Notes: generated from the letters alone by a model not told the origin. Positions 6,289 to 30,961 are shown, numbered from the stretch's first letter. The stretch is DNA of 38,228 bases from Acidobacteriaceae bacterium (GCA_003135475.1 PLBW01000001.1:1-38228), one strand, 5' to 3'. A program made the numbers and translations.

Positions 6289-8283
6289 ATGCCCGCCACT
6301 TTGGTCGAACATCAGCTACACATGCCGAGGCTGCGGCGATTTCGAATTGATCGCATGTCGATCTACTCGAAGAAGCCGACGGTCGACGTGTCGTTTGCGA
6401 GCGGTGTGTTTTGCCTCGCAGGCGCGAACGGGCTCGGTAAGTCGACGTTTCTCGCTGCTCTGAACTACGCGATAACCGGAATTGTTCCCGATCCTGAAAG
6501 GAAGTTCGAATCCGTTCCGGAGTACTACGCATACAGTAAAGACTTTGCTGACAATTATTTCGATGGACGGGTAAACGACGCCGACCGCGAAGCCGCTGAG
6601 GTGACGGTCGAGTTTGTTGTTGGCTCGAAGTCCTTTGCGCTAACCCGGGGAATCTTCGAGCGAGACAGCCTTCGTTCATTGCTGATCACTGACTCAAAGT
6701 CAGGCGATGTGCTGTTGAATGGAGCCAAGCTTACGCCTCGGCATCGAGAAGAGCGTTACGCATCTGCGCTCGCAAGAGAGGCTGGACTTACCTCTTTTGA
6801 CCAGTTTGTGTTCTTGCAGCATTTTGTCTTTACCTTCGACGAGCGACGGCATTTGTTGTTCTGGGACCAACGGGTACTTGAACAGGTTCTATATCTTTGC
6901 GTTGGCATTAATTCAGCTGATGCGCATCGAGCCGACACTCTTCGGCGTGACATAGAGAAAGCCGACTCTTTGGTGCGTAACTACCAATGGCAAGCAACGG
7001 CACTGACAGACAAACTTAAACAGCTTGAAGAGGTTGTCGAATCGGATGTTGCTGCTGACAGAGCCTACCGCTTGGCGGTGGAACATCGCGATCTGCTGCG
7101 AGAGCGAGACGCAGCGACGTCGGCAGTAATTAAAGCTCAGGAACGCAAGCAGGATGTCGAGCTGAGTTTTGCTCAACTCACCGGTCAAGTCGCTACTCTG
7201 ACTAGTGAATATGAGGAAGCGTTTCAGGAGTATTTCTCAGCGCGACAAGCCCCACGCTCGCATCCCTTAGTTGCCGCGGCCTTGGATAAGGCCCAGTGCG
7301 GCATTTGTGGCGCTGCTGGTGATGACGTGAGATCAGCAGTTGACCGCAAATTGCAATCAAACATTTGTCCTTTCTGCCAGTCGCCAGTGGTCGAAAAGGC
7401 GAAGGCACCGGAGGCGTTGAAGAAGATTGATAAAGAGCTCGCCGGGGCCAGGGAGAAGCTGAGGAACGCTGGTGAGCGTGTCCAGCGACTTGCTGCAGAG
7501 CTGAAGACCTTCGATGAAATGGCCCTTAAAATCGCTTCACGAGTTGATCGCTTCGAGCGAGAACATAGCTCGGTCCTCAATCTCGCCGAAGTCAAGAATC
7601 CTACTGCTCTACACCGGACGATCACGGGCTATCGTGAGCAAATTGAGTCGCTGTTGAAGAAAAAGGAGACACAACGGGAAAGGCGTGAAGAAAAGAAGAA
7701 AGAGCTCCGCCAGTATCAAAAAGACCTTGTCAAGCAATATGCCGATGCGGAGGAGGTTTTCCTCCCGGCTTTCCGCAATCTGGCCCAGAGCTTCTTAGGG
7801 TTGGATCTTGATGTCCATATTGACACAAAGGCATCTGGTGTATCTCTCATTCTGACTGTCACTGACACTGCTCGCCGCGAGCAGTATCAGTTGTCCGAAA
7901 GCCAACGATTCTTTGTCGACATAGCGCTGCGAATGGCTCTAATCGAACTGACGTCGCGAGAGGAAAGGACCGCATGTCTCCTCATCGACACTCCTGAAGG
8001 AGCACTAGATATCGCCTACGAGAGCAGAGCAGGCGAGATGTTTGCGGATTTCGTTCTGCATGGGTTTAACATCATACTGACGGCAAATATCAATACATCT
8101 AGGTTGCTGCTTAATCTAGCCAGGTTATGCGGTAACAAGCACATGCACCTCAGTCGAATGACAAGTTGGACGGAGCTGTCGGAAGTACAAACGCAGGAAG
8201 AGCATTTATTCATAGAGGCTCTGAGCGCTATCGAGGCTGCGATGAATACAGTGCCGTCACCCCAAAAGCGAGTCCATGCTTAG
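6289..8283 (+). CDS. SMC/Rad50-like ABC ATPase (ABC-3C-type)
   Basis: A 664-residue ATPase and first gene of the cassette. Walker A is GANGLGKST at residues 45-53. A Q-loop-like segment (FVFLQHFVF) follows near residue 178, a coiled-coil region spans about 210-520, an ABC signature-like LSESQRF lies at 535-541, and Walker B is CLLIDTPEGALD at 563-574. In the middle of the coiled coil are two CxxC pairs, C337/C340 and C360/C363. They look like a four-cysteine zinc knuckle at the hinge, rather than the single CxxC of the Rad50 hook. Short SMC-like ATPases of this kind head ABC-three-component and Lamassu-type conflict systems, where they sense foreign or damaged DNA. The ATG at 6289 is used; the ATG at 6322 (MPRLRRFRI) fits the family's N-terminus better and may be the real start. 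The gene overlaps the next by 8 nt. Confidence 0.9.
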   Translation: MPATLVEHQLHMPRLRRFRIDRMSIYSKKPTVDVSFASGVFCLAGANGLGKSTFLAALNYAITGIVPDPERKFESVPEYYAYSKDFADNYFDGRVNDADREAAEVTVEFVVGSKSFALTRGIFERDSLRSLLITDSKSGDVLLNGAKLTPRHREERYASALAREAGLTSFDQFVFLQHFVFTFDERRHLLFWDQRVLEQVLYLCVGINSADAHRADTLRRDIEKADSLVRNYQWQATALTDKLKQLEEVVESDVAADRAYRLAVEHRDLLRERDAATSAVIKAQERKQDVELSFAQLTGQVATLTSEYEEAFQEYFSARQAPRSHPLVAAALDKAQCGICGAAGDDVRSAVDRKLQSNICPFCQSPVVEKAKAPEALKKIDKELAGAREKLRNAGERVQRLAAELKTFDEMALKIASRVDRFEREHSSVLNLAEVKNPTALHRTITGYREQIESLLKKKETQRERREEKKKELRQYQKDLVKQYADAEEVFLPAFRNLAQSFLGLDLDVHIDTKASGVSLILTVTDTARREQYQLSESQRFFVDIALRMALIELTSREERTACLLIDTPEGALDIAYESRAGEMFADFVLHGFNIILTANINTSRLLLNLARLCGNKHMHLSRMTSWTELSEVQTQEEHLFIEALSAIEAAMNTVPSPQKRVHA

Positions 8284-8905
8284 TCCTGAAGCGACATTTG
8301 ACGCTTTATTGATCGCGGATTCTATCCAGCAAAAGCTCGGCGATGCGGCCGAGGGAGAAATCCACCTATTTGCCTATCTCGCCTGTTTGCTTTCTATATT
8401 CGAAAAGTGGCCGGCTTCGCTATGGCTATACACTTTTGCGGGACTTCAAAATGGGGCACCATTTAGCGCGGAGCTTCATAATTCAATTGCATCATGCCTC
8501 AATTCTGGAGACTTAGTCGCAGTAGCGATCCCTGACACTCTCCGTCTAACTTCTGTGGGATGTGAGAAATTGACATTTATGAGGGGCCTCGGCTCTCTGT
8601 CACCACGTACCAGATATCTAGAGGCGGCCTGCTCTACTCTACGGTCGTTGCCAGTTGGCCTGATTAGAACCGCGATGGGAATGGAACCCGGTCTTCGGCC
8701 TGCTATTATTGCGCGCTCGGCGCGATCTCTTCTGACCGGCGCTGCTCTCGACCAGCTCTACGACCATTTTGATGCCGTTAGCAAGACTGTCGGAAACCAG
8801 GCCCGACATCTAATCATTCCAGCCTCCGTTTGGCTTTCATATCTGTTCGACACCGCCAGGAAGACCGACCGCATGCTCTCTGGGACTGAGGTCCAGCATG
8901 GCTGA
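8276..8905 (+). CDS. Putative ABC-3C middle component
   Basis: A 209-residue protein whose start lies inside the ATPase gene (8-nt overlap) and whose end overlaps the nuclease gene by 8 nt, so the three should be made together. It begins with a helical segment. This is followed by a winged-helix-like pattern: FAGLQNGAPFSAELHNSI, then ASCLNSGDLVAV, then LRLTSVGCEKL (about residues 59-103). This 'G-x-PFS-x-EL ... L-x-x-G-x-L ... L-x-L-T-x-x-G' layout, its size and its place beside an SMC-like ATPase are what is known of the small middle components of ABC-3C systems, thought to link the ATPase to the effector. The rest is alpha-helical with no catalytic motif. The assignment rests on pattern and context, not on a search. 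Confidence 0.62.
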   Translation: MLSPEATFDALLIADSIQQKLGDAAEGEIHLFAYLACLLSIFEKWPASLWLYTFAGLQNGAPFSAELHNSIASCLNSGDLVAVAIPDTLRLTSVGCEKLTFMRGLGSLSPRTRYLEAACSTLRSLPVGLIRTAMGMEPGLRPAIIARSARSLLTGAALDQLYDHFDAVSKTVGNQARHLIIPASVWLSYLFDTARKTDRMLSGTEVQHG

Positions 8906-9935
8906 TATAAACCTTGCCACGATGGCTGCAATCATGCGTGACCTTTTCTGGCGGATGGTTTTGGAAGCACACGGCGACCCCGGGGTGCCTGCCCTTGCTG
9001 AACTGATTGATTTTATTCAAGAACTTTATAAGGCAGTGCCTCCCGAACAATGTCGCTTTCGGATAGTCATAGTTAAGCCCTTGGATGATCTTGCACTCCC
9101 GGCGCTCACAGAAGTCGGGTCCTTATATGAAGTCGCTGCCTTGATAGCAGATCATGCGGTGGTTATACAACGACTCAACAGTGGGCTGCTACGTATATCC
9201 ACGACCGATATGGATGTTGTCGGGCTTGCCGCCAATGCTGTGGTATACAGCTTTGAGTCTGGTGTGGAGTGCTTTTACGCGAAAGCTCAACAACAAATCG
9301 TCAAGAACCCCGTGTCTGGGTCGGCCAGCGTTTTTGCTGTTGCTACGTTCACAGATCTCAAGCAGGCTCTTGAGGATTACAAAATGCGGCGGGCCAGGAA
9401 ATGCTCCTGCCCTATTTTGGCAAAGGCCTGGAGGGGAAGAAACCGACTGTTCTTCAAGGCGGCACCAGAAAGAACAATGCAGGAGTCCCTGGCGGAGTTC
9501 TTGGACAGCCATCTGCGCGGCAACGTCGAAGTACGACGAGAGCAGAATGTCAATCCTACCCAGCCCATCGATATTAAGGTTACTTGGTTCATGACGAATC
9601 GTCTAGCACTGATCGAAGTCAAGTGGCTTGGAAAGTCTTTGAGTGCAGCTGGAAAGATAACGAGTCGAACCGATGCCCGCGCTCGTGAAGGAGCAAAGCA
9701 ACTCGCGGCTTATCTAGATGACAACGCATCCGAGGCTCCCATCCAAGAAACGAGAGGATATCTGGTTGTGATCGACGGACGACGTGCAGGCCTGAAGCGA
9801 GGGGCACGACATATCGATCGTCAGAAGGGTTTGAAGTACTCAGATAGAGAAATAGCATATTCGCCAAAATATCACGAGACCAGAGCCGATTTTGAAACTC
9901 CGATTCGACTCTTTGTTGAACCGATCTGCGGATGA
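8898..9935 (+). CDS. PD-(D/E)XK nuclease, putative effector
   Basis: A 345-residue protein overlapping both neighbours (8 nt upstream, 4 nt downstream). The C-terminal half has a restriction-endonuclease core: a helix with QESLAEFLDSHL (about 195-206) that can supply the first acidic residue, D225 in QPIDIKV, then E240-V-K242 in ALIEVKWLG. The D-x14-E-x-K spacing is typical of PD-(D/E)XK nucleases. It is followed by an Arg/Lys-rich helix (AREGAKQLAAYLDD) and a strand (GYLVVIDGRR), as in the end of the fold. The N-terminal 180 residues are of unknown fold and may bind the ATPase or middle component. In ABC-3C and Lamassu systems the third gene is commonly such a nuclease, cutting DNA once the ATPase is triggered. 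With a methyltransferase next door, classical restriction is an alternative. Confidence 0.8.
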   Translation: MADINLATMAAIMRDLFWRMVLEAHGDPGVPALAELIDFIQELYKAVPPEQCRFRIVIVKPLDDLALPALTEVGSLYEVAALIADHAVVIQRLNSGLLRISTTDMDVVGLAANAVVYSFESGVECFYAKAQQQIVKNPVSGSASVFAVATFTDLKQALEDYKMRRARKCSCPILAKAWRGRNRLFFKAAPERTMQESLAEFLDSHLRGNVEVRREQNVNPTQPIDIKVTWFMTNRLALIEVKWLGKSLSAAGKITSRTDARAREGAKQLAAYLDDNASEAPIQETRGYLVVIDGRRAGLKRGARHIDRQKGLKYSDREIAYSPKYHETRADFETPIRLFVEPICG

Positions 9936-11218
9936 CTATGGAACTGAATCGGACCTTTCCCTACCAGGGGGCGACTTACTCGACGACTCAAACGGCTGAT
10001 ACTTTGCCTAGGCACCGGTGGTATCTGATAAAGGAAGGGTTTTCGTCGAAGCTTGTCGAAGCGGCAATCGATGGAGCATCCTTGAGATCGCCGGATATGG
10101 TATTTGATCCTTTCAGTGGCTGTGGAACTGTCGCATTGACCGCAGCACAACATGGTCTCTCGGCTGCAGGGATCGAGGTAAACCCATTTCTAGCGTTTGT
10201 TTCACAAACGAAGTTGGCAACCTGCAACACGCAAAAGCTGTTAGCGTCCAGTGAAAAGGTTCTCGCGGCGGTTCTAAAGCCGCGTCCTGCTAAGTCTCCA
10301 TTGGAAGGCTATTCAACATTTTCACAGTCTGGCGAAAGAAGTAAGTGGCTATTTAACTCAGAGGTCCTTCGTGCATTTGAGACTGGATGGCACGCAACAG
10401 CGACTGCCGGGCCGCGTCAGCGGCGGTTCTTGCGTTTGGCACTGGTAAAGGCGGCGATGGACAGCTGTAACGCCACGGCTGATGGCAAATGTTTGCGATA
10501 CCGGAAAAATTGGAAAGAATGTGCTTTTGATCGCTTCTCTGTAGGCGAGTCATTTGAAAGATATGCTAGTAATATCGCCGAAGATATTGACGAGGTTCGA
10601 CTGTCAGGCTCCGGCATCGTTTACAGCGGGGATGCTCGGTCACTAATTACCTCCATGCGGCGGAGGTTTCGTCTGTGCGTAACGTCACCGCCTTACTTGA
10701 ATTCTTTTGACTACTCTGACGTGTATCGTCCGGAGCTCTTCTTGGCCAACTTTGTAAAGAATACCGCTGAGTTGCGGCGCATTCGTCTTCGCACCATACG
10801 CTCCCATGTGCAGGTTCGATGGGAACCGCCGACAAAGAGCGATTTTGGTGAGATTTACACTAGAACTGCTAAGGATCTTCGAGAGGTCCAAGCGAATCTC
10901 TGGGATAGTCATATTCCGTTGATGGTGCAGGCGTATTTTGAAGATATGAGCCTCATCTTAAGGAATCTTTACAGACTAGCTGCTAAGGACGCTCAACTGT
11001 GGCTTGTAGTTTCTACTTCGGCGTATGGAGGAGTGGAGATACCGGTAGATATGATCCTCGCCGAAGTAGCGGTGAGGTCCGGTTGGTATTTGAAGGAAAT
11101 CGGGATTGTTCGGCACATGCGACACTCTGGGCACCACTGGATGAGACTTCCCGACAAAGAGCGTGCAGAAGCAAAGCTCAGAGAGGCGGTTGTGGTTCTC
11201 ACAAGAATACCAGTGTGA
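9932..11218 (+). CDS. DNA methyltransferase, N4-cytosine/N6-adenine type
   Basis: A 428-residue SAM-dependent DNA methyltransferase whose start codon overlaps the nuclease stop (ATGA). An N-terminal motif X-like segment (PRHRWYLIKEGFS, about 25-37) precedes motif I, DPFSGCGT, at residues 59-66. The catalytic motif IV is TSPPY at 251-255, followed by LNSFDYSDVYRPE. The order X-I-IV, with about 185 residues between I and IV, matches the alpha-like arrangement with the target-recognition part in the middle. TSPPY is most often seen in N4-cytosine enzymes, but N6-adenine is possible. It ends with RHMRHSGHHWMRLP and a short helix. It may protect host DNA from the adjacent nuclease. Adding a methyltransferase to an ABC-3C-like trio is unusual. 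Confidence 0.88.
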   Translation: MTMELNRTFPYQGATYSTTQTADTLPRHRWYLIKEGFSSKLVEAAIDGASLRSPDMVFDPFSGCGTVALTAAQHGLSAAGIEVNPFLAFVSQTKLATCNTQKLLASSEKVLAAVLKPRPAKSPLEGYSTFSQSGERSKWLFNSEVLRAFETGWHATATAGPRQRRFLRLALVKAAMDSCNATADGKCLRYRKNWKECAFDRFSVGESFERYASNIAEDIDEVRLSGSGIVYSGDARSLITSMRRRFRLCVTSPPYLNSFDYSDVYRPELFLANFVKNTAELRRIRLRTIRSHVQVRWEPPTKSDFGEIYTRTAKDLREVQANLWDSHIPLMVQAYFEDMSLILRNLYRLAAKDAQLWLVVSTSAYGGVEIPVDMILAEVAVRSGWYLKEIGIVRHMRHSGHHWMRLPDKERAEAKLREAVVVLTRIPV

Positions 11219-16445: not shown

Positions 16446-17678
16446 TCAGCTCTGGTCCCGCTCCCGTAGATGCGCTTCCGTTATTCTGAACAGTTGTACC
16501 ATACGCTGTCCGACAAAATCCAAGGCTTCGCCCCTGAACATGCCTAATAAAGCCTTGTCGCTGCTCCAATCCAGGTAAGGCATAGCAAAGTATTGCCACC
16601 ACTCCCACGATCTTTCCGTTCCACCCCTGCCCAATGCCAGATTCAGCTTATCGCCTAAATCGCCAAGCTGGCGTCCTGGCTCAGGATGTTTCTTGCCGAT
16701 CCCAAAGAACATCTTGGATGCATTTCGCGTCTCGCTTTCGAGGCTGATGCTATATAGTCCCGTCCATTCCGGACTGGCAAGCGAAAGACCCGCACCTTTT
16801 GTCAGCGGTTCAGTCAGCATACTCTCATCGACTACAACCGCGCCTGGTAGTTCCTGCATGAGGCGCTTTTTGAGGGTTGCAATGAATCTGGTTATCACAC
16901 GCTCCTGAATGCGATGTAATCGAGTGCCAACTGCGATTGAGAGCTCCAACTGCTCATCGTTTTGCAACGCATAATCTACAATCAACTCATCTTCAGCGCT
17001 CACCGATCTGCTCCCTTCCCACTCAGGAAAAGTGCGAGCCAGGTATCTGCAAAAATCCCGCAGAAACCACCGGACCCGGTCTGCCTGACATCGATTGATG
17101 CAATCGTCAAGCCAGCCGAACATGACGTCCGGAAAACTTAGGACCTTTATCCGGCCGGCTTCTTTGAGTGACGAAAGCAACTCCTTGGAGATACTGTTTG
17201 GATCTGGATCAGAGCCATCACCTGATAAGTACACGAGCAGGAACCGACCTTGAGACTCTCTCTCCAGATCACGAACGTAATCCGCCAACTGCTCATCTTG
17301 GTCTTCGGCCCAAAGCTTGTTTTCGATTCCCAAGCTAAAGTCGTCCCAGCGAATCTTTATATCGATAAACCGAGGCCGGTTGATAAAGCGAGTTGGTTCT
17401 TCAGCCAAAACCAGAGGCGGCGGCCCGGGACTGCGGCTCGTCAAACCAATCAGAGCTAGGAAGCTCGCTAAGAACACATCGCCTTGCCCGTGACTTCCGT
17501 CCGGCCTGAGCAGATTCGCACTGATCTGCGAAAGCCCAGGTTCGCTGGTGTCGAGATAGTCAAAGCAATTGAAGTCTTCGGCCAGAAATATATTCGCCTG
17601 CTCCCGCAGCTTCTTCGCGAGTCTTTGCGGGGCCTGTATTCCACTGAAGAATCGTTCGAGCGCAGATCGAGTTATCAT
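16446..17678 (-). CDS. PD-(D/E)XK nuclease family protein (PDDEXK_4-like)
   Basis: A 410-residue soluble protein transcribed away from the Rad50-like ATPase gene. The nuclease core is in the first third: SEPGLSQISANLLRP with HGQGDVFLASFL (about 45-73), then D106 in FIDIKI, then E119-N-K121 in LGIENKLW, followed by EDQDEQLADYVRDL and a strand, FLLVYLSGDG. That order and the I-E-N-K plus D-Q-x-x-Q-L pattern are those of the PDDEXK_4 (PF14281) family, often found in defence islands. The C-terminal 250 residues (helices, then a basic region near KKRLMQELPG and GKKHPEPGRQLGDLGDKL) also fit the family's usual length. Substrate and trigger are unknown. It shares a 150-nt promoter region with the divergent ATPase operon. 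Confidence 0.8.
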   Translation of the reverse strand: MITRSALERFFSGIQAPQRLAKKLREQANIFLAEDFNCFDYLDTSEPGLSQISANLLRPDGSHGQGDVFLASFLALIGLTSRSPGPPPLVLAEEPTRFINRPRFIDIKIRWDDFSLGIENKLWAEDQDEQLADYVRDLERESQGRFLLVYLSGDGSDPDPNSISKELLSSLKEAGRIKVLSFPDVMFGWLDDCINRCQADRVRWFLRDFCRYLARTFPEWEGSRSVSAEDELIVDYALQNDEQLELSIAVGTRLHRIQERVITRFIATLKKRLMQELPGAVVVDESMLTEPLTKGAGLSLASPEWTGLYSISLESETRNASKMFFGIGKKHPEPGRQLGDLGDKLNLALGRGGTERSWEWWQYFAMPYLDWSSDKALLGMFRGEALDFVGQRMVQLFRITEAHLRERDQS

Positions 17679-17773
17679 TCCAGGCTGCCTTGCCCCTTTG
17701 CTTAGAGCATAGTAGCCCCTCTCGCATCACATTTCCAGTCGCTCACGAGAGTGACGCAGGGGTGTGTTGGTTC

Positions 17774-17803
17774 TTGACTCCACGTAAAGGCATGGTACCT
17801 TTA
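17774..17803 (+). promoter_or_regulatory. Candidate promoter with inverted-repeat operator
   Basis: In the divergent region between the nuclease and the ATPase operon, a TTGACT box (17774-17779) is followed after 16 nt by TACCTT (17796-17801). Over the spacer and -10 box lies a perfect 6-bp inverted repeat, TAAAGG-N7-CCTTTA (17785-17803). A repressor dimer bound there would block the promoter. No regulator gene is adjacent, so one of the module's own proteins or a distant factor would have to bind. Confidence 0.4.
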
Positions 17804-17828
17804 TGTTATTAGACGAAGCATAACAATC

Positions 17829-17996
17829 ATGATCCAAACTGAAAAGAAACTCCTTGATGAGCTTAAACAGTCGCTGGAGGGGACGATCCCGAAGGCGCTT
17901 GTCGATGCCTATGTTGTCGAGCCTGGCCCTGAAAGCATCGTGGCTTCTTTGCTAAAGATCCTGGAGCAGGAGGTTTCAAGAGATGAACATTCTTGA
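17829..17996 (+). CDS. Small hypothetical protein upstream of Rad50-like ATPase
   Basis: A 55-codon frame whose end overlaps the ATPase gene by 14 nt in another frame. It begins MIQTEKKLLDELKQSLEG and has a second helix around ESIVASLLKILEQEV. Composition and codon use look genuine and the overlap suggests translational coupling, but the ribosome site of this ORF is poor. No family is recognised. It could be a small partner of the ATPase. Confidence 0.55.
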   Translation: MIQTEKKLLDELKQSLEGTIPKALVDAYVVEPGPESIVASLLKILEQEVSRDEHS

Positions 17997-20451
17997 GCTC
18001 CGGGTGGCTGGCCTACGTGGTTTCAATGACCGACAGACCATTGAACTAGGTGGACAGCTAGTGATTTACACAGGCCCAAACGGCGCGGGTAAAACGTCGA
18101 TCGGTGAGTGTTTGGAATGGTTGCTGTATGGAAAGACCTTAAAACGCAGCAGGGGCGACGAGATAAGCAAGAGAGAATACGCTGACAGCTATAAGAATGC
18201 CCACTATTCGGCATCAGACAATCCCTTTGTCGAAGCGGATGTAATCGATCCTAGCGGCGCTAAGCGTGTTGTTCGGAGGGAACTTATTGACGGTGAGGGT
18301 TCGGTACTGACGATCGATGGGACTCGGGCCAGTAGTTTGGAAGAGCTTGGTATTGGCACTCCTTATGACCGCCCATTAATCTTGCAGCACACACTTCAAG
18401 ACTTCATTTTTATGAAGCCGAAGACCCGATATGAGGTTTTATCGGCGATGTTGGGCCTTGAGCCGCTCATCGCTTTTAGAAATGCCGTTGATCAGGCAAA
18501 AACCAATCTCAACAGGAGTTTGCCTGCCAGAATAGTCGAGGCTCAAGCGTATAGCGCCACTTTGGGACGCTCCTTTCAGCAAGAGCCTTTGCTTAGGCCG
18601 GTATGGCTGGCAATTCAGCAGGGAGATTTGAAAGAGGCACACAAACACCTGACTCAGGTAGCACTGGGAAGAGTTGCTCCTGGAACCACCGAAACAGATC
18701 TTAGGCCTGCCCTGCAGTCCGTAAAGTCGTCCAGAGAGCGTGCCCAACTAGATTGGGGTCGCTTTTCCCTGAACCCGGTGCCAAAACCAGAAGCGCATCA
18801 GGCGATTTCAGGACTCGGTGTAATTGACGGCTTGCTTGAAGACTTTCACCAACAATTGGAAACGGCCCAAGCAGTGGCGCAGCCACAGTCAGAGGAACCA
18901 AGCCAACCGACCGTCAGAGAATTCATCAAGTTAGGTTTGCAAATTCATTCGTCTCGTGACGACAAGATCTGTCCATTTTGCCAAGAGGAGACCTTGAGCC
19001 CCGAAAAACTCGATGCGTTAAGGCAAACGGCCGAATTTGTCCCGGCAATGCGTCCGTCGCTTGCTGAAGCGCAAGGTACCCTGGGTCGCTTACAACAGGC
19101 TGTCCGTCAGCACGGGGAATATGTTTCTTTTCTGAGTCCGGCACTTCCATCTCAGGAGCAAGAACAAGTCATAACGGCCCTCACCTCGGAAGTCTCGGGA
19201 TTGACGAATAGCTTCAAAGAGGCAATTGGCGCGATTCGGACCCAAGTTGAACTCGTAAGGTCAAAGCGCAATGCTCTCGATGACAGTATAAAAACTCATT
19301 CGTCACTCCTCGCGAAGCCTACGGGACATAACGGCTTTACCGATCTAACTGAAGCTATCAATCAGTACGCCGATGCGGTGAGAACACTGCCGGCGGTTGC
19401 GAATGGGTACGCCGCCACCTATGCGGCGCTCGACCCTTATGTCAGACAGAAATTGTCATCTACTCAGGAAGTTCAATTCCTTGTGCTTCTGGACAATGCG
19501 CTCGGGCGCTGGAGAGACGTCGAGCTTGCACACCTCGCCGACGGTATGTCTCAACTCTTGCAGGACGTTGTACGTCAGACTCGGCAGTTCATCGAGGACA
19601 AGCAACGCGAGATTCTTGGAGTTCGTGACAAAGACATACGCCGCTGGTACGACATGATGAATCCAGGAGCACAAGTCGGGTACGACTGTATTGTTCCTGG
19701 AACGGACAGCCTTGAGCTGCGAGCGCGATCATTTACGCGAACTATGATGGCTGCGCCCAATCTTAGCGCCAGTCAGCTGAATTGCATTGGTCTTTCGGTG
19801 TATTTGGCCTGTGCTACCAGAACAGCCTCGCCTCACACAATGCTGTTGTTCGACGATCCTGTTCAATCAATGGACGACGAGCACCTGGAAGCTTTTAAGA
19901 AAATTGTAATCAAGAACCTGTTGGATAGCGGCTTCCAGGTCATTATGCTGACCCACATGGATACATTCGCGGACGACATCGAAAAGCTTTACAGGACAAC
20001 GCACAATCCGAACCTGTTTAAGCTGCAGTCATATTCTCAGTCGGGACCGACTGTACAATACACTGGGCCACAGATACAAGGACTCCTTCAAGAAGCTAAG
20101 AAGAATATGGACTCTGTCAACGACGGCTTTCGAAAACAGGCGATCCAAGCATTGCGGCAGTTTGTCGAGAGATTTGTCAAAGATCTGTTTATTGCAGAAA
20201 CAGGCACATCGGTTTCAAAACGTTTTGAGAACAAGAATTGGGGAGAGCTCAAACCGCTACTTCGGCAATGCAAGACATTCGACGCCGCTGATGAATCCAA
20301 ACTCGAAGATACGCACTCGTTTACTAGCCAGTTTATTCACACAGACGGCACTATCCCCGCCAAGATTGCATCGTCGGCACAAATCAGGCCGCACTACAGC
20401 GAGATGGATGGGCTCTTTACGAAGTACAAAAGCGTGTTTGGAATTAAGTGA
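17983..20451 (+). CDS. Rad50/SMC-like AAA ATPase
   Basis: An 822-residue ATPase with a strong ribosome site (AGGAGGT about 9 nt before the ATG). Walker A is GPNGAGKT at 31-38. A Q-loop-like LQHTLQDFIF lies near residue 131, long helical segments span about 150-570, one CxxC hook (C330-P-F-C333) lies inside them, and the ABC signature-like LSASQLNCIG is near 602-611. Walker B is LLFDDPVQSMDDEH at 621-634, with a following LTHMDTFADDI switch. The single CPFC hook resembles the zinc hook of Rad50, which dimerises through Zn. A C-terminal extra domain of about 130 residues (from QAIQALRQFVERFV to FTKYKSVFG) resembles the RAMA/DUF-like tails of defence ATPases, without a known name. With the divergent nuclease it may form a nucleolytic complex on DNA ends or foreign DNA. 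Confidence 0.88.
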   Translation: MNILELRVAGLRGFNDRQTIELGGQLVIYTGPNGAGKTSIGECLEWLLYGKTLKRSRGDEISKREYADSYKNAHYSASDNPFVEADVIDPSGAKRVVRRELIDGEGSVLTIDGTRASSLEELGIGTPYDRPLILQHTLQDFIFMKPKTRYEVLSAMLGLEPLIAFRNAVDQAKTNLNRSLPARIVEAQAYSATLGRSFQQEPLLRPVWLAIQQGDLKEAHKHLTQVALGRVAPGTTETDLRPALQSVKSSRERAQLDWGRFSLNPVPKPEAHQAISGLGVIDGLLEDFHQQLETAQAVAQPQSEEPSQPTVREFIKLGLQIHSSRDDKICPFCQEETLSPEKLDALRQTAEFVPAMRPSLAEAQGTLGRLQQAVRQHGEYVSFLSPALPSQEQEQVITALTSEVSGLTNSFKEAIGAIRTQVELVRSKRNALDDSIKTHSSLLAKPTGHNGFTDLTEAINQYADAVRTLPAVANGYAATYAALDPYVRQKLSSTQEVQFLVLLDNALGRWRDVELAHLADGMSQLLQDVVRQTRQFIEDKQREILGVRDKDIRRWYDMMNPGAQVGYDCIVPGTDSLELRARSFTRTMMAAPNLSASQLNCIGLSVYLACATRTASPHTMLLFDDPVQSMDDEHLEAFKKIVIKNLLDSGFQVIMLTHMDTFADDIEKLYRTTHNPNLFKLQSYSQSGPTVQYTGPQIQGLLQEAKKNMDSVNDGFRKQAIQALRQFVERFVKDLFIAETGTSVSKRFENKNWGELKPLLRQCKTFDAADESKLEDTHSFTSQFIHTDGTIPAKIASSAQIRPHYSEMDGLFTKYKSVFGIK

Positions 20452-20498: not shown

Positions 20499-20850
20499 TG
20501 TAGGCAAAATTGTAACTGTCAAAGCCTCAAAGAACCGCGCACTTCAATAGCTTTCAACGAGCGGCATGCAACACGTTCAATATCAATCACTTACGAACAA
20601 CAAATTTCACCAAGTTTCAATATGCTTTGGAATCTAATTCGGGAGTTAGGTTCCCGACCCTAAAGTGCCAGGAGTACGTCCTTTAATTTCAGCTATTTAG
20701 CAATTAGGGGGATGTGGAGATCTGTTGAACTGAGTGGATTTCGACTGTTACAAAAGATGCCCGTATTCACTGCCGAAACGGTTTCCAGATGCCTTCCGCT
20801 GGGTCGCCCACCTGGTCTTTTGCCGAGCGAGTCCAACTACAATTGTGGGA
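20499..20850 (+). repeat. Long direct repeat RU, copy 1 (complete)
   Basis: 352 nt starting tgtaggcaaaattgtaactg and ending near aactacaattgtggga. The first 100 nt recur at 23042 and 30183; the remainder recurs at 26813. It contains a hairpin, TCGGGA...TCCCGA (20639-20657), which is longer in copy 2. No intact reading frame is conserved, and it ends 136 nt before the stop of the ClC gene. Function unknown. Confidence 0.85.
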
Positions 20851-20985
20851 GCGCGACCCTCGAGGGATTTGAGAATGAAGCCCATTTCATAAGTCTTTTC
20901 GGTCGGATTCGCAGAGCTGATCCGTGAAACCCCAAGGATTGCTTCAGGGTAGTCCGGGATACAGAAAGAATCCCCACCTTTAAGC

Positions 20986-23041: not shown

Positions 23042-23140
23042 TGTAGGCAAAATTGTAACTGTCAGAGCCTCAAAGAACCGCAAGATTCAATAGCTTTCAA
23101 CTAGCGGCCTGCAACGACTTCAATATCAATCACTTACATT
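23042..23140 (+). repeat. Long direct repeat RU, copy 2, left half
   Basis: 99 nt matching the first 99 nt of copy 1, interrupted after cacttacatt by the transposon. The right half resumes at 26813. The last 8 nt form the target duplication. Confidence 0.88.
23133..23140 (+). repeat. Target-site duplication, left copy
   Basis: CTTACATT directly left of the transposon, repeated exactly at 26805-26812. Eight bp is the duplication length known for IS1595-family insertion. Confidence 0.85.
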
Positions 23141-23163
23141 GGCAAGAATATACTTGACAGAAG
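23141..23163 (+). repeat. Transposon terminal inverted repeat, left
   Basis: Begins GGCAAGAATATAC; 17 of 23 positions match the reverse complement of 26782-26804. It contains the -35 box of the transposase promoter. Confidence 0.8.
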
Positions 23164-23182
23164 TTAATGATTCTGCTACACT
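23154..23182 (+). promoter_or_regulatory. Sigma-70-like promoter for the transposase
   Basis: TTGACA (23154-23159), 17-nt spacer, TACACT (23177-23182), close to consensus. The -35 box lies inside the left inverted repeat, so transposase bound to its own end could shut down its synthesis, a common self-control arrangement. The ribosome site AGAGG follows 5-6 nt before the ATG at 23211. Confidence 0.75.
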
Positions 23183-23210
23183 TTCTCTTGTAACGTTGTA
23201 AGAGGCTTAT

Positions 23211-24221
23211 ATGGAAGACTTTAACCCAAAGACACTGCAAGAGACCATCCAATTCTTCACTGAGTTCGAGAATTGCCGCTTGTTCATGACGGCCTTGCGC
23301 TGGCCGGACGGCAAAGTGCGCTGTCCGCGCTGCAGCTCGTATAAGGTTAGATACCTTGACAATGCCCGCGTGTACTGGTGCGCCGAGGGCCACAAAACCC
23401 CCAAGTTCTCACTCAAGGTGGGCACGGTATTTGAGGATAGTCCGATTGCCCTTGAGAAGTGGCTCCCCGCCGTCTGGATGCTGGTAAACAACAAGAACGG
23501 CATCTCTAGCTGGGAACTGCATCGCGCACTTGGCGTGACGCAGAAGTCCGCATGGTTCATGCTTCACAGGATTCGCGCTGCAATCAAGACTGGCGGATTC
23601 AAATTTGGCGGTCCCGAAGGTGGAGAGGTCGAAGTGGATGAGACTTTCGTCGGCGGCAAGACCATCAACATGCACAAGAAGAGACGAGCCGAGATGCAGC
23701 GGAAGCATATGGAAATGCGCGGCTCTGACTCTGAACAAGTTCACCGCTACGTGAACAAGACTGCCGTGCAGGGAATGCTTGACCGCGAGCTTCGGCAGGT
23801 GCGTGCCAAGGTCGTGCCGAACGTGAGACGCGATACCCTGCAGAACGAAGTATTGAACCACGTGCGCTTCGGCTCTCGTCTTTACACCGATAACGCGGTT
23901 AGCTACGAGTTGCTGAATTCAGACTATGTGCACGAAGTCGTTAGCCATGCCGATGAATACGTGCGGGGCCGCGTCCACACAAACGGATTGGAGAACTTCT
24001 GGTCGCTGTTGAAGCGGACGTTGCGCGGCACATACGTTGCAGTCGAGCCGTTTCACCTTGACCGCTATCTGGACGAGCAGACATTCCGATTCAATAACCG
24101 CGCTACCAAAGATAACCCGTTGAATGATTCCGACCGCTTCGTATACGCGCTCTCGCAGATCGTCGGCAAGCGGCTCACCTACAAGGAACTGACGGGGAAG
24201 GAGGAGGAGGCGCCCTTCTAA
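23211..24221 (+). CDS. IS1595-family transposase
   Basis: A 336-residue transposase. The N-terminus has a zinc ribbon (CPRCSSYKVRYL ... WCAEGH, residues about 38-64), then a helix-turn-helix-like SWELHRALGVTQKSAWFMLHRIR typical of the family. The catalytic core (ISXO2-like domain) shows VEVDETFVGG with the first Asp near residue 143, LYTDNAVSYELL with the second Asp, and NGLENFWSLLKR giving the N and K of the family's DDNK-type motif. It ends with FRFNNR and a helix, of normal family length, so it appears intact. It cuts and joins the element's ends with 8-bp duplication. Confidence 0.95.
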   Translation: MEDFNPKTLQETIQFFTEFENCRLFMTALRWPDGKVRCPRCSSYKVRYLDNARVYWCAEGHKTPKFSLKVGTVFEDSPIALEKWLPAVWMLVNNKNGISSWELHRALGVTQKSAWFMLHRIRAAIKTGGFKFGGPEGGEVEVDETFVGGKTINMHKKRRAEMQRKHMEMRGSDSEQVHRYVNKTAVQGMLDRELRQVRAKVVPNVRRDTLQNEVLNHVRFGSRLYTDNAVSYELLNSDYVHEVVSHADEYVRGRVHTNGLENFWSLLKRTLRGTYVAVEPFHLDRYLDEQTFRFNNRATKDNPLNDSDRFVYALSQIVGKRLTYKELTGKEEEAPF

Positions 24222-24409
24222 TCCCTTTCGCCGGAAGCGTGGCCCGAAGTCGAAATCTTAGGCTTGGGGCCACGTCTCGGCATCTTCGCTCGTTCCGCTT
24301 TCTCTTCCGCCAGGACTCGGTTCACTTCCGCTTTGGGCGCGCGCATAATCGCCCGCATCGCGTTCTCGAAATTCGTGTACTCTGCCGACGGTTTGGGATT
24401 AGACTTCAT
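24218..24409 (-). CDS. Small basic protein in the transposon
   Basis: A 63-residue protein, convergent with the transposase and overlapping its end by 4 nt. The ATG at 24409 (MKSNPKPSAEYTNFENAM) is preferred over 24427. The pattern 'EY-x-NFE-x-AM-x-x-I-M-x-x-PK-x-E-V-x-R', followed by a basic KMPRRGPKPK tail, resembles small proteins common near mobile and toxin-antitoxin genes. The function is unknown; the tail suggests DNA binding, and the small acidic-basic layout could also be antitoxin-like. No toxin gene is adjacent. Confidence 0.6.
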   Translation of the reverse strand: MKSNPKPSAEYTNFENAMRAIMRAPKAEVNRVLAEEKAERAKMPRRGPKPKISTSGHASGERD

Positions 24410-24519
24410 GCTTGCATGATACAGCACGCTGCAACTCCTGCCATGACCGCTGGGGTTGCAAGTGAAGTTTGGACGCTAATTGCTCTGCTTGCGGCCAACC
24501 AATACGAAAGGCTAAGTCT

Positions 24520-24870
24520 ATGCACGAGATTTCTTCCGAAGTTGCATTTTGGATTTTGAATGCATGGCGACGGATGGCCGCGCAATTACAGGTGAGGGGC
24601 ACCAAGGGGAATGAGTCCAAGATGCTACCAGCGGGTATCTTGTGGTGTGATCCCCAACTCTCGAAAGTCCGCTTGGTCATATTGGACGATTTGGGACAGA
24701 AAGAAGAATGGCCGCTTTCTTTGTCTGGTGCGACGTTTACATTCGGTGTACCCAAGGAATCCGCGTCATTCCCTGAGCTTGCAGGTAATGCTTGGCATGG
24801 ATATTTATTGGCTGAACTTCCAGACGGGGAAACAGTCTTGTTTGCTGAACGCTTCCTTGAGGCAGAATGA
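24520..24870 (+). CDS. Hypothetical passenger protein
   Basis: 116 residues from the ATG at 24520, with GAAAGG about 8 nt upstream; the frame is open further up to a TTG at 24469. Residues 1-20 form a helix (EISSEVAFWILNAWRRMAAQL). The rest is mostly beta: GILWCDPQLSKVRLVILDD, SLSGATFTFGVPKES, FPELAGNAWHGYLLAELPDG. It looks like a small soluble beta-rich protein. No family is recognised. It is the first of four passenger genes in the same direction. Confidence 0.6.
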   Translation: MHEISSEVAFWILNAWRRMAAQLQVRGTKGNESKMLPAGILWCDPQLSKVRLVILDDLGQKEEWPLSLSGATFTFGVPKESASFPELAGNAWHGYLLAELPDGETVLFAERFLEAE

Positions 24871-24895
24871 GAAACAGGCATAATGGTGGCTCCTC

Positions 24896-25198
24896 GTGAA
24901 ATTAAATCGAATACAACGCGCTGTGATCGTGGTTTATTTCCTAGCGATTGCTTACTGCTGCCTCTGGATTCCGTGGTGTTTACCGTGGAATAACACAGGT
25001 GATGATTCAGGCTTGGCCGGGTCTTGGCATGTTGGCTACGGTTGGCTCTGGAGCGGACCACGCCAGTTAAGCTATCAACGAGGGTTACACACCTCACCAG
25101 ACATCCCTTTAATCGTACTGCGCTTGGTTGCAACAACCGCTCTTGCTGGCGCTGCTCTTGCGCTAACGAGTCTGAAAAGTTCATCAACACACAATTAG
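24896..25198 (+). CDS. Small membrane protein (passenger)
   Basis: 100 residues from a GTG at 24896. Two hydrophobic segments, AVIVVYFLAIAYCCLWIPW (about 9-27) and a C-terminal IVLRLVATTALAGAALAL (about 73-90), are separated by a polar, Trp/Gly-rich loop (WHVGYGWLWSGP). This is the shape of a small two-helix membrane protein common in bacteria but without a known role. It lies 25 nt after the previous gene and is likely co-transcribed. Confidence 0.6.
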   Translation: MKLNRIQRAVIVVYFLAIAYCCLWIPWCLPWNNTGDDSGLAGSWHVGYGWLWSGPRQLSYQRGLHTSPDIPLIVLRLVATTALAGAALALTSLKSSSTHN

Positions 25199-25265
25199 CC
25201 CACTAACCTATTTTCGCTAACCCTTTTCGCCACAGAACCAAACTTTTCTTCCGCGAGGCAAACCC

Positions 25266-25712
25266 ATGACCGACGGTAAGCTTGTGTATCAACTGCACTG
25301 CCCGTTGTGTGACGAGACCATTGATCTCCCGCATCAAAGCCCATTAGGAACATTCGTAAATCTACAATGTCAGCCCACGGGTACGTGGCCAATAGCATTT
25401 CTATGTAGAGAGCGCGAGCAACTGTGTCAGATCGCAGCGAATTTTGAGGGGCCGACAACGGCTTTTGTAGGCTCGGCCCCAACGTCAGGCAGTTTGGCTC
25501 TGTGGCTGATTGAATGTCGATGTGCCCACGAAAACTGCGATAAGCCGCTATCCATATACAGTGAACATTTTGCACTCGCCACCAAAAACACGATAATGGA
25601 CACGTTATCTCGCGGTTTATCCAAGTGCTCACCGCCCTTAGTGTGCCCTTCCACGAAACATGAATTTGTGTTGTCGATGGATAAGTTTTGGCTGTACAGA
25701 TTAGATTCTTGA
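25266..25712 (+). CDS. Hypothetical protein with Cys motifs (passenger)
   Basis: 148 residues. The N-terminal CPLCDETIDLPH (residues 12-23) is half of a zinc-ribbon-like motif, and CRCAHENCDKP near residue 95 can supply the other Cys residues. A central segment TAFVGSAPTSGSLALWLIECR lies between them. The ribosome site is GAGGC about 6-8 nt upstream. A zinc-binding or redox role is possible but not shown. The minus-strand frames over this gene are shadows. Confidence 0.6.
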   Translation: MTDGKLVYQLHCPLCDETIDLPHQSPLGTFVNLQCQPTGTWPIAFLCREREQLCQIAANFEGPTTAFVGSAPTSGSLALWLIECRCAHENCDKPLSIYSEHFALATKNTIMDTLSRGLSKCSPPLVCPSTKHEFVLSMDKFWLYRLDS

Positions 25713-25950
25713 CAGGGGCTTGCAAAATGGTTCGCTCCATGCGATGATTTCGCGGAGCGCAACCTGCTCTCCCGACTTGGGTGTCGGTGATTTAATTTTC
25801 TGCGTTAGACCGCTTCGCTTCCCGCTTGCCCGCTTCGAGCGTTCCGGCCTTTCCTGCCCGAACTGTTGATGCTCTGCCTCAGAAAGCAGGGTACTCGCAG
25901 TGGTGTGCGTCCGTCAACCGTTCAACATTCTTTTTGAACGAAAGCCATTC

Positions 25951-26742
25951 ATGGCAATCTTCAGCGCATACTTCGATGAAAGCGGCAAATCCCACAGCCA
26001 GCGCGTCGTGACCTTCTGTGGTGTGTGTGCCCCAGCCAACAAAATTCAGAGCTTCGAGGACGAGTGGAACGGACTTTTGAGGCGCTATGAGATGCCTTAT
26101 CTCTCGATGAAAGAGGCACTTCGGCTCAAGAAGCCGCTAAGTAAGAACGTGAAGGCACTAGGTAAGCGCGAGAGAATCGATGCCCTGAAGCCTTTCTCTG
26201 ATTGCATTCGGGAGCATATTGAGTTGGGGATCTCTGTTGCGGTTGACGTAGAGGCTTACGAGAAAGACCTTTCGGTTGAGGCTCGGCGGCGGCTCGGAGG
26301 AAGTCCAGACCCGCATTACCTTGCGTTCATGAGCGGCATTATGGGGCCAGTGGCCTATGTGCAGAGCGACGATCATGTCAGTTTAATTTGCGATGATGAC
26401 GAGGCCACCGCGCTTAATTGCTATCAGTTCTATCGTCGCGTTCGTAAAATATATCGGCCTGCTCACGATAAACTTATCTCGATAAGTTTTGCCCAAGATC
26501 GCCAATTTCCCCCGTTGCAGGCAGCCGACCTTGTGGCTTCGTTAGTCAGGTTAGAAGCCCACCTCCAATTTGAAAATCGCCCATACGACTATCGAGAATT
26601 GTTCTTACATCTGACTGCTCCGAGTGTTCCAGCTAAGATGATGTGGGGGATTTCCTTCTACGGAAGCGAGCGGATGAAGGCGTTTGGAAAGAAGTTAGAA
26701 AAGAACCCCCTTGGCACCAAAATAACTCATTTGCAGTTCTGA
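25951..26742 (+). CDS. DUF3800 domain protein (passenger)
   Basis: 263 residues starting at the ATG at 25951 (MAIFSAYFDESG); the frame is open to 25900, but the domain begins right here. The YFDESG at residues 7-12 and the later LQAADLVASLVRLE are the two acidic motifs that mark DUF3800 proteins, which are thought to have an RNase H-like fold. FGVC-like strands and SLICDDDEA fall between them. DUF3800 proteins are common in accessory regions, often near transposons or phage-related genes, with no agreed role. It is the last gene of the element, 62 nt from its right end. Confidence 0.8.
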   Translation: MAIFSAYFDESGKSHSQRVVTFCGVCAPANKIQSFEDEWNGLLRRYEMPYLSMKEALRLKKPLSKNVKALGKRERIDALKPFSDCIREHIELGISVAVDVEAYEKDLSVEARRRLGGSPDPHYLAFMSGIMGPVAYVQSDDHVSLICDDDEATALNCYQFYRRVRKIYRPAHDKLISISFAQDRQFPPLQAADLVASLVRLEAHLQFENRPYDYRELFLHLTAPSVPAKMMWGISFYGSERMKAFGKKLEKNPLGTKITHLQF

Positions 26743-26781
26743 GATTGCACCCTGTCACGGCATCTTCACCCTAGCACAGAA

Positions 26782-26804
26782 CTTCCGTTATGTATATTAG
26801 TACC
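26782..26804 (-). repeat. Transposon terminal inverted repeat, right
   Basis: Read on the minus strand it begins GGTACTAATATAC and matches the left end at 17 of 23 positions. Adjacent to the right target copy. Confidence 0.8.
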
Positions 26805-26812
26805 CTTACATT
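26805..26812 (+). repeat. Target-site duplication, right copy
   Basis: CTTACATT, identical to 23133-23140; the RU repeat resumes directly after it. Confidence 0.85.
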
Positions 26813-27065
26813 CACCAAATTTCAACAGGTTTCACCAAGCATTGGAATCTGGTTCGGGAGCCAGGTTCCCGACCCTAAAGTGCCAGGAGTACGTCCTTTA
26901 GTTTCAGCTATTTAGCAATTAGGGGGATATGGAGATCTGTTGAACTGAGTGGATTTCGACTGTTACAAAAGACGCCATATTCACTGCCGAAACGGTTTCC
27001 AAGATGGCTTCCGGTGGGTCGCCCAACCCAATTGTTTTCCGAGCGAGCCCAACTACAATTGCGGA
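26813..27065 (+). repeat. Long direct repeat RU, copy 2, right half
   Basis: 253 nt matching copy 1 downstream of the insertion point, so 99+253=352 nt, equal to copy 1 without gaps around the junction. It holds a strong hairpin, GGTTCGGGA-N7-TCCCGACCC (26851-26875), nine paired positions with one G-T pair. The metallophosphoesterase gene begins 246 nt after its end. Confidence 0.88.
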
Positions 27066-27311
27066 AGCAGAGCTTGGGGTCACCGCGTCTGCACTTCTGC
27101 CTGATGACAATGCGATCTACTTTGGGCGAATGGCAGGCAGATGGGACCCTGTGCCGAACCAAAGAAAACATTGGGCGCTGAAATACCTCGATGTGTGTCC
27201 CAGATCACCGACAAGCTATCCCATGCAGGGATATAGTGCAGCGCTGTTCGGAACTAAAACGGAAATTCCGGTACATACAGGTCTTGAAACGTTTTTGATT
27301 CAGGAGCAAAT

Positions 27312-30182: not shown

Positions 30183-30333
30183 TGTAGGCAAATTTGTAAC
30201 TGTCAAAGCCTCAAAGAACCGCACACTTCAATAACTTTCAACGAGAGGCATGCAACAGGTTCAATATCAATCACTTACGGTCAACAGATTTCAACAGGTT
30301 TCAATAGGCTTTGGAATCTGGTTCGGGATTAGG
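30183..30333 (+). repeat. Long direct repeat RU, copy 3 (left part)
   Basis: About 150 nt matching the start of copies 1 and 2 up to ggaatctggttcggga; then it diverges. Same orientation. Confidence 0.85.
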
Positions 30334-30961
30334 TGAGTTACCTCCCAAGTACATATTTATCTGCCGTAGATTCAGCAGGTTGCATTTCCGGGTTATGGAA
30401 CGCTGTTGATCCTTGAGGAATCTCCAGTTACAAATTTGACTACACCAGCACGCCGATCCCACCGAAATGATCCCGAAGTCGTTGAAAACAGGCGGGCATT
30501 TGTGGGCGCGGCTGACACCCGACCACCTGGTATTACACTAGGTGCTTGGGTTCGCTCGGGCCAGCGGTACTTGGGAAGCGGCCCCGAGTCCTAACCAGGG
30601 CATTAGGCAGCTTGCTTTAAATCGGAGTGCCGCAATTCTAGGTAGTCAACGTTAGACTGCCCGAACATGCATATTTCCAACTACGGGGCAGTTAAGGCAG
30701 CAAATTCCACTCGTACCGGGCGGTTTTGGTTTGTTCCACGATCTCTGCCGTCGGTTCAACGGAACCGAACCAGTTCCGCTACCCCCGCAGGCGGCCGTGT
30801 CCCGTGAAACAAGAATCCGGCGGTCTACTTTTACTCCGCCGCATCACGCCGCTTCCGCGGCGTAATGCGGTCTATTTTTGCTCCGGCGCTTAGACATTCG
30901 GCGGAACACGTCATGCTCTCGCGCATAACTATAGGTCCTTTGCGCCTGTGGTTCGCACTTT
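30334..30961. other. Intergenic decay region
   Basis: About 630 nt with no supported gene. Two imperfect near-repeats, 'cggtctacttttactccgccg' type, lie around 30821 and 30869. On the minus strand a fragment ends VEQTKTARYEWNLLP at 30692-30777, which may be the tail of a lost gene. Confidence 0.4.

Follow-up and report, generated by a model that had tools for sequence, protein, structure and literature searches.

An IS1595-family transposon of a soil Acidobacteriaceae bacterium belongs to a lineage that swaps its cargo, probably often for defence-type genes

We analysed a window of 38,228 nt (the whole stretch of DNA, GCA_003135475.1 PLBW01000001.1:1-38228, from an Acidobacteriaceae bacterium of soil), in which a 3664-bp transposon of the IS1595 family occupies positions 23141-26804 (Table 1). 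The initial annotation had assigned the interval 23133-26812 to the element; the site was right, and this interval also takes in both target duplications, which lie outside the element proper. The exact 8-bp duplication that had been reported is present, CTTACATT being found exactly twice in the window, at the two edges of the element. The agreement of the inverted ends at 17/23 positions was reproduced as well (19/26 over the full repeats), and among 100 block shuffles the ends flanked by an exact 8-bp duplication agreed at 15/26 positions at best.

Table 1. Position and strand of the features of the transposon and of its target repeat in the window
Feature	Position	Strand	Remarks
Uninterrupted target repeat, copy 1 (empty-site homologue)	20499..20852	+	alignment with joined flanks
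Left target-site duplication CTTACATT	23133..23140	.	exact pair, single pair in window
Left inverted repeat GGCAAGAATATACTTGACAGAAGTTA	23141..23166	+	fits lineage consensus GGCAATAATATACTTGACTNACC
Likely transposase promoter: TTGACA (in left repeat), 17-nt spacer, TACACT	23154..23182	+	consensus match only
IS1595-family transposase, 336 aa	23211..24221	+	Pfam DDE_Tnp_IS1595, Zn_ribbon_IS1595
asb, small basic protein, 69 aa	24218..24427	-	convergent, 4-nt overlap with transposase stop
Acidic orphan ORF, 116 aa	24520..24870	+	no homologue in related genomes
Membrane protein, 100 aa, GTG start	24896..25198	+	homologues in 5/199 other related genomes
Cys-rich protein, 148 aa	25266..25712	+	homologues in other genomes and C204
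Non-coding spacer ahead of DUF3800	25713..25950	+	fold z-score -2.4
DUF3800 protein, 263 aa, RNase H-like (predicted)	25951..26742	+	PF12686, AlphaFold2 model; frame open from GTG 25900
Right-end motif CCCTGTCACGGC, inner edge of conserved right end	26750..26761	+	25/92 elements
Right inverted repeat GGTACTAATATACATAACGGAAGTTC, - strand reading	26779..26804	-	19/26 against left repeat
Right target-site duplication CTTACATT	26805..26812	.	second half of exact 8-bp pair
Second uninterrupted target repeat copy, shorter	30183..30334	+	runs across insertion site

The gene at the left codes for the transposase, as had been annotated, and both Pfam domains of the family are above their cut-offs: DDE_Tnp_IS1595 (ISXO2-like DDE; E 3e-37, 128.5 bits, cut-off 27) and, at the N-terminus, the IS1595 zinc ribbon (26.9 bits, cut-off 25.4). 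It is the sole transposition gene recognised in the element, in which no TnsA, TnsB or TnsC gene was found. IS1595 elements duplicate 8 bp of target and have inverted ends beginning with GG; both hallmarks are present in the window element and in four further copies of the lineage in the same assembly (C204, C205, C162 and C97), which have exact 8-bp duplications, the same type of ends and differing cargo.

The stretch 23141-26804 is one clean insertion into a member of an existing repeat family. Its flanks, when joined with a single duplication, are 88% identical to copy 1 of the repeat in an alignment of about 356 columns that has small gaps only and none at the junction, in agreement with the earlier claim that the insertion came after the repeats were formed. 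Three more copies are unbroken at the insertion point (window 30183-30334, C226:43714-43859 and C106:522-670), so that four copies without insertion are present in the same genome. It could be argued that the end pair is a chance match and that the IS is in fact shorter, the supposed passengers being ordinary genes of the chromosome next to it, given that IS1595 elements, in plant pathogens, are typically about 1 kb long with a single ORF (PMC11092175). We consider this hardly credible: no shuffle gave a comparable end pair, the unbroken repeat copies are compatible with the whole unit only, and the final 54 nt of the element match the right end of a relative, L048. The repeat itself is dispersed and non-coding, with a core of about 150 nt and a length of up to 354 nt, and its five copies in the genome (the four above and 23043-27068, split by the element) sit among unrelated genes, such as those for a ClC channel and a Tat-exported phosphoesterase. 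As no tRNA was detected in it, we rejected the possibility that the flanking repeat is a tRNA.

Genome contigs were scanned with an alignment of the transposase, which gave 80 loci, mostly of Acidobacteriota, and elements were bounded by matched ends together with a search for the duplication. In this way we bounded 57 elements, those of the window's own genome included, with lengths of 1727-5899 bp (median 2649), ends GGCAATAATATACTTGACTNACC and CWAATTWG as favoured target. From the viral contigs of IMG/VR we used the best 80 of 363 relatives of the transposase (loci L258-L337) and bounded 35 elements (median 2525 bp), whose origin is no proof of carriage by phages because such contigs may contain host DNA. 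The total was 92 bounded elements, with no near-identical pairs; the sampled loci are the closest relatives of the window transposase, that is, a subset of IS1595 elements. None of the 92 (1.7-5.9 kb) was a bare IS, although the method was able to detect one of 1.1 kb. TTGAC was retained in 87 elements, and in 74 of these it is paired with TANNNT at a spacing of 15-19 nt.

The small basic protein next to the transposase, which we call asb, had been annotated as a passenger, and in this the relatives do not agree. A homologue was found in 77/92 elements, mostly convergent with the transposase, against 4 matches in 810 kb of flanks. By set, it was present in 28/35 viral elements and in 49/57 genome elements, the latter count being partly circular because the asb model was built from that set; the viral set and the flanks are independent of it. 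Directly convergent genes number 36 in the genome set, and 15 of them overlap the transposase by 4 nt, like that of the window. A search of 60 genomes in which asb was the only query retrieved 30 loci, 22 of which had the transposase no more than 1.5 kb away. Being such a near-constant companion, asb probably belongs to the transposition module rather than to the cargo, and its constancy would support a part in transposition or its control. In 13 elements it has another position within the element or is read from the opposite strand, and therefore it is no by-product of the transposase frame. An AlphaFold2 model of modest confidence predicts a two-helix hairpin with a basic tail.

We also considered a toxin-antitoxin-like pairing of asb with the cargo that would retain the element in the genome, with DUF3800 as the toxin and asb as the antitoxin. 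Such a pair would fit the presence of asb in 27 of the 29 elements with DUF3800, the in-frame fusion of the two proteins in L067 and L188, and the location of toxin-antitoxin genes in the transposition module of some Tn3 elements (PMC7157771). However, asb is also present in 50 of the 63 elements without DUF3800 and accompanies all types of cargo, being fused in frame even to a methyltransferase (L070); for this reason its role as an antitoxin of DUF3800 only was rejected as the main reading, and we regard the toxin-antitoxin explanation as distinctly improbable. DUF3800 and asb genes are also adjacent outside bounded elements, in the left flank of L118 and at L172:3834-4917, where no transposase was found; both pairs are possible decayed elements.

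Sister elements swap cargo but retain the left module together with a short stretch at the right end. In 12 pairs of close sisters, one of which is formed by the window element and L048, the left module is 72-87% identical, the last 21-61 nt are kept and the cargo DNA is essentially unrelated, its homology being limited to asb and to one 173-nt stretch (L291/L292); C205/L127 and C205/L283, which match over the transposase only, were excluded from these pairs. When the 29 carriers of DUF3800 are mapped onto a maximum-likelihood tree of all 92 transposases, their distribution requires 26 changes, no fewer than with shuffled labels (24.7), and 13 changes are forced when only well-supported branches are used. 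DUF3800 is scattered at random over the tree, and cargo exchange outpaces the divergence of the transposase.

The conserved right end often carries the motif GCCCTGTCACGGC, which was found in 25/92 elements, in every case at a distance of 45-69 nt from the right end, and 0-1 times in control windows. The longest right-end homology between sisters begins at this motif, which may mark the junction with the cargo, bind a protein or act as a terminator; no counterpart was found at the left end. It has just four exact copies in the genome, two inside IS1595 elements and two (C68 and C80) in regions without a transposase match, and was rejected as a wider genomic site.

As regards the cargo of the window, the initial annotation had listed five unrecognised passengers. 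All five ORFs are present and four of them have no family match, but DUF3800 matches Pfam, the only one to match a known family, and asb is probably no passenger; no window protein matches the PADLOC defence models. For the orphan ORF, zero homologues were found among 249 other related genomes, and no homologue of the membrane protein in other genomes adjoins a transposase of the window type. Homologues of the Cys protein were found in 16 further genomes of the family and in element C204 of its own genome (36% identity), with none in plasmid records, and a related transposase lies near it in only 4 of the 17 genomes that have it. The passenger set that had been expected to recur in other IS1595 elements is not a fixed one: the Cys, DUF3800 and membrane proteins recur separately. 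Scatter of the passengers outside any element had been named as evidence against the annotation; here they lie within 23141-26804, while homologues of these three proteins are mostly found elsewhere. In C204, a cargo gene related to L033:7299-8090 (L009:2394-3149) appears to be interrupted by a stop codon that leaves two ORFs, which points to decay of the cargo.

The DUF3800 protein of the window (PF12686, E 4.5e-9, 37.6 bits, cut-off 21) is predicted to fold like RNase HII. Its AlphaFold2 model, from a 19-row alignment, has a pLDDT of 80 and a pTM of 0.81, and its first 23 matches in the PDB are all type 2 RNases H (best E 3.7e-5), with TM-scores of about 0.35-0.55. In the alignment D9 is invariant, and D193 and an acidic residue at position 10 are each present in 18/19 rows. 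At the sequence level, hhalign found no relation to the RNase HII profile (probability 0.3%) and a search of the PDB with the DUF3800 profile gave no match; therefore we call the protein RNase H-like, not RNase HII.

DUF3800 is enriched in the lineage, being carried by 29/92 bounded elements against 3 matches in 810 kb of flanks. Pfam matched 15/104 cargo ORFs to it and an iterated model raised the count to 19/57 elements; in the viral set the iterated model found it in 10/35, 6 of which are confirmed by Pfam alone. Element C205 carries a different DUF3800 gene together with a ClpP-like protein, and thus both DUF3800 genes found in the genome lie within IS1595 elements. The family is also present outside these elements: 200 related genomes contain about 75 DUF3800 genes, and of 40 loci sampled, 10 had a transposase of the IS1595 type nearby. 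In the right repeat, the inward TTGAC has been retained by 13/19 elements in which DUF3800 reads inward from that end and by 2/10 in which it is on the opposite strand (Fisher p 0.02, 29 elements), so the right repeat may supply a promoter to the cargo. No structured RNA of the kind associated with DUF3800 was found with Rfam in the window, in the element or at 10 related loci. The spacer ahead of the gene folds better than 198 of 200 shuffles and could be a structured RNA.

Among the cargo families of the relatives are RelA/SpoT-like synthetases, ClpP, SocA, PemK, HEPN and PIN proteins, a type IIG restriction enzyme and an N6/N4 methylase with an Mrr domain; toxin-antitoxin genes are carried by some relatives. 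PD-Lambda-5 A and B were matched at 7.5e-112 and 1.5e-108, the B protein lying in L070 (7681-10104) beside a 440-aa ORF that is likely A; an AriA/PDC-M38-like pair is present in L095:1246-3011, and restriction-modification and RelA/SpoT genes in L081:3583-6417 and L065:5466-8172. With ORFs called mechanically and families tallied as proteins per family, 104 cargo ORFs gave 29 Pfam families against 140 in 104 flank ORFs. The flank families are mostly housekeeping ones, and neither DUF3800 nor RelA/SpoT is among the 25 families listed; the flanks contain one AbiE pair. Since most cargo ORFs have no family match, the term 'defence-type' rests on a minority of them plus association. Our literature search, which covered few of the subscription journals, found no paper on defence cargo in IS1595 elements.

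The cargo might be neutral filler, if the transposase tolerates any DNA and bystander genes are captured and replaced randomly; very rapid turnover, the numerous ORFs without homologues, and the orphan and membrane ORFs without known function are what this would produce. Yet random capture predicts housekeeping genes and a breadth of families like those of the flanks, and would yield neither 29 diverse DUF3800 genes in 92 elements nor complete two-gene defence pairs. We hold neutral filler to be rather unlikely and favour, with reasonable confidence, a cargo-swapping IS1595 transposon whose modules are often of defence or conflict type.

In the favoured reading, the transposition module would be made of the left repeat with its built-in promoter, the transposase, the convergent asb and a short right end (the inverted repeat, plus GCCCTGTCACGGC in a quarter of elements), and an exchangeable cargo module would occupy the space from asb to the right end. 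In the IS1595 family the transposase mobilises the unit between its ends; here the transposase, with the -35 box of its promoter in the left repeat, would move the whole unit into AT-rich 8-bp sites, and asb, read convergently, probably helps or limits transposition. The cargo may be kept because the host or the element gains from it, most often in conflicts with phages or with other mobile DNA, and would be replaced over time with both ends retained. The DUF3800 protein of the window may act as an RNase H-like nuclease in a conflict module, perhaps together with the neighbouring Cys, membrane and orphan proteins.

Siguier, Gagnevin and Chandler reportedly described in 2009 IS1595-family IS with passenger genes ('tIS'), as cited in PMC7986276. 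The window element resembles them in transposase domains, 8-bp duplication, inverted ends and passengers: DUF3800, the Cys protein and others without a transposition role lie inside 23141-26804. In contrast to that description, cargo is here present in 92/92 relatives, asb is a near-constant second gene, sisters exchange cargo, DUF3800 dominates and a right-end motif is shared. Passenger-carrying IS1595 elements are thus already known, and the entirely cargo-bearing lineage is a variant that may overlap with the subgroups of 2009. In Tn7-like transposons, too, the ends are fixed and the cargo between them varies, with an enrichment of defence and toxin-antitoxin genes (PMC8649781), but here a single IS1595 transposase and a small protein stand in place of TnsABC(D/E), in units of 2-6 kb with an 8-bp duplication and no target-site proteins. 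Tn3-family elements with toxin-antitoxin genes share a small accessory gene beside the transposition genes and exchangeable passengers (PMC7157771), but here the transposase is different, asb is not a known antitoxin and no resolvase was found. DUF3800 proteins occur near Cas12a2 and other class 2 CRISPR loci (PMC10910872, PMC12669027), and an RNase H fold has been reported for those near Cas12a2 (PMC10910872). The window protein is of the same Pfam family, with that fold in a predicted model; unlike them, it has no TPR domain in a Pfam scan, no known ncRNA in the window, and is cargo of a transposon.

A broader claim, which we make tentatively as a possibility somewhat against the odds, is that this is an undescribed compact cargo transposon, with an IS1595 transposase, a near-obligatory small partner and cassettes fixed at the asb and right ends, serving as a 2-3-kb shuttle of defence genes mainly in Acidobacteriota and viral contigs, and that DUF3800 is an unrecognised RNase H-like defence family. 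In draft genomes from soil, the limits of these elements can be set with single-base precision. As the whole lineage bears cargo, can be bounded and exchanges cargo fast, its cargo provides a compact list of candidate conflict genes that is headed by DUF3800. In addition, asb offers a testable partner protein for IS1595 transposition, and the question is raised of how cargo is replaced with both ends preserved. Two other regions of the window appear defence-like by eye: 6289-11218, where an SMC-like ATPase is accompanied by two more ORFs and by a protein resembling DNA methylases, and 16446-20451, with a second SMC-like ATPase adjoining a possible nuclease.
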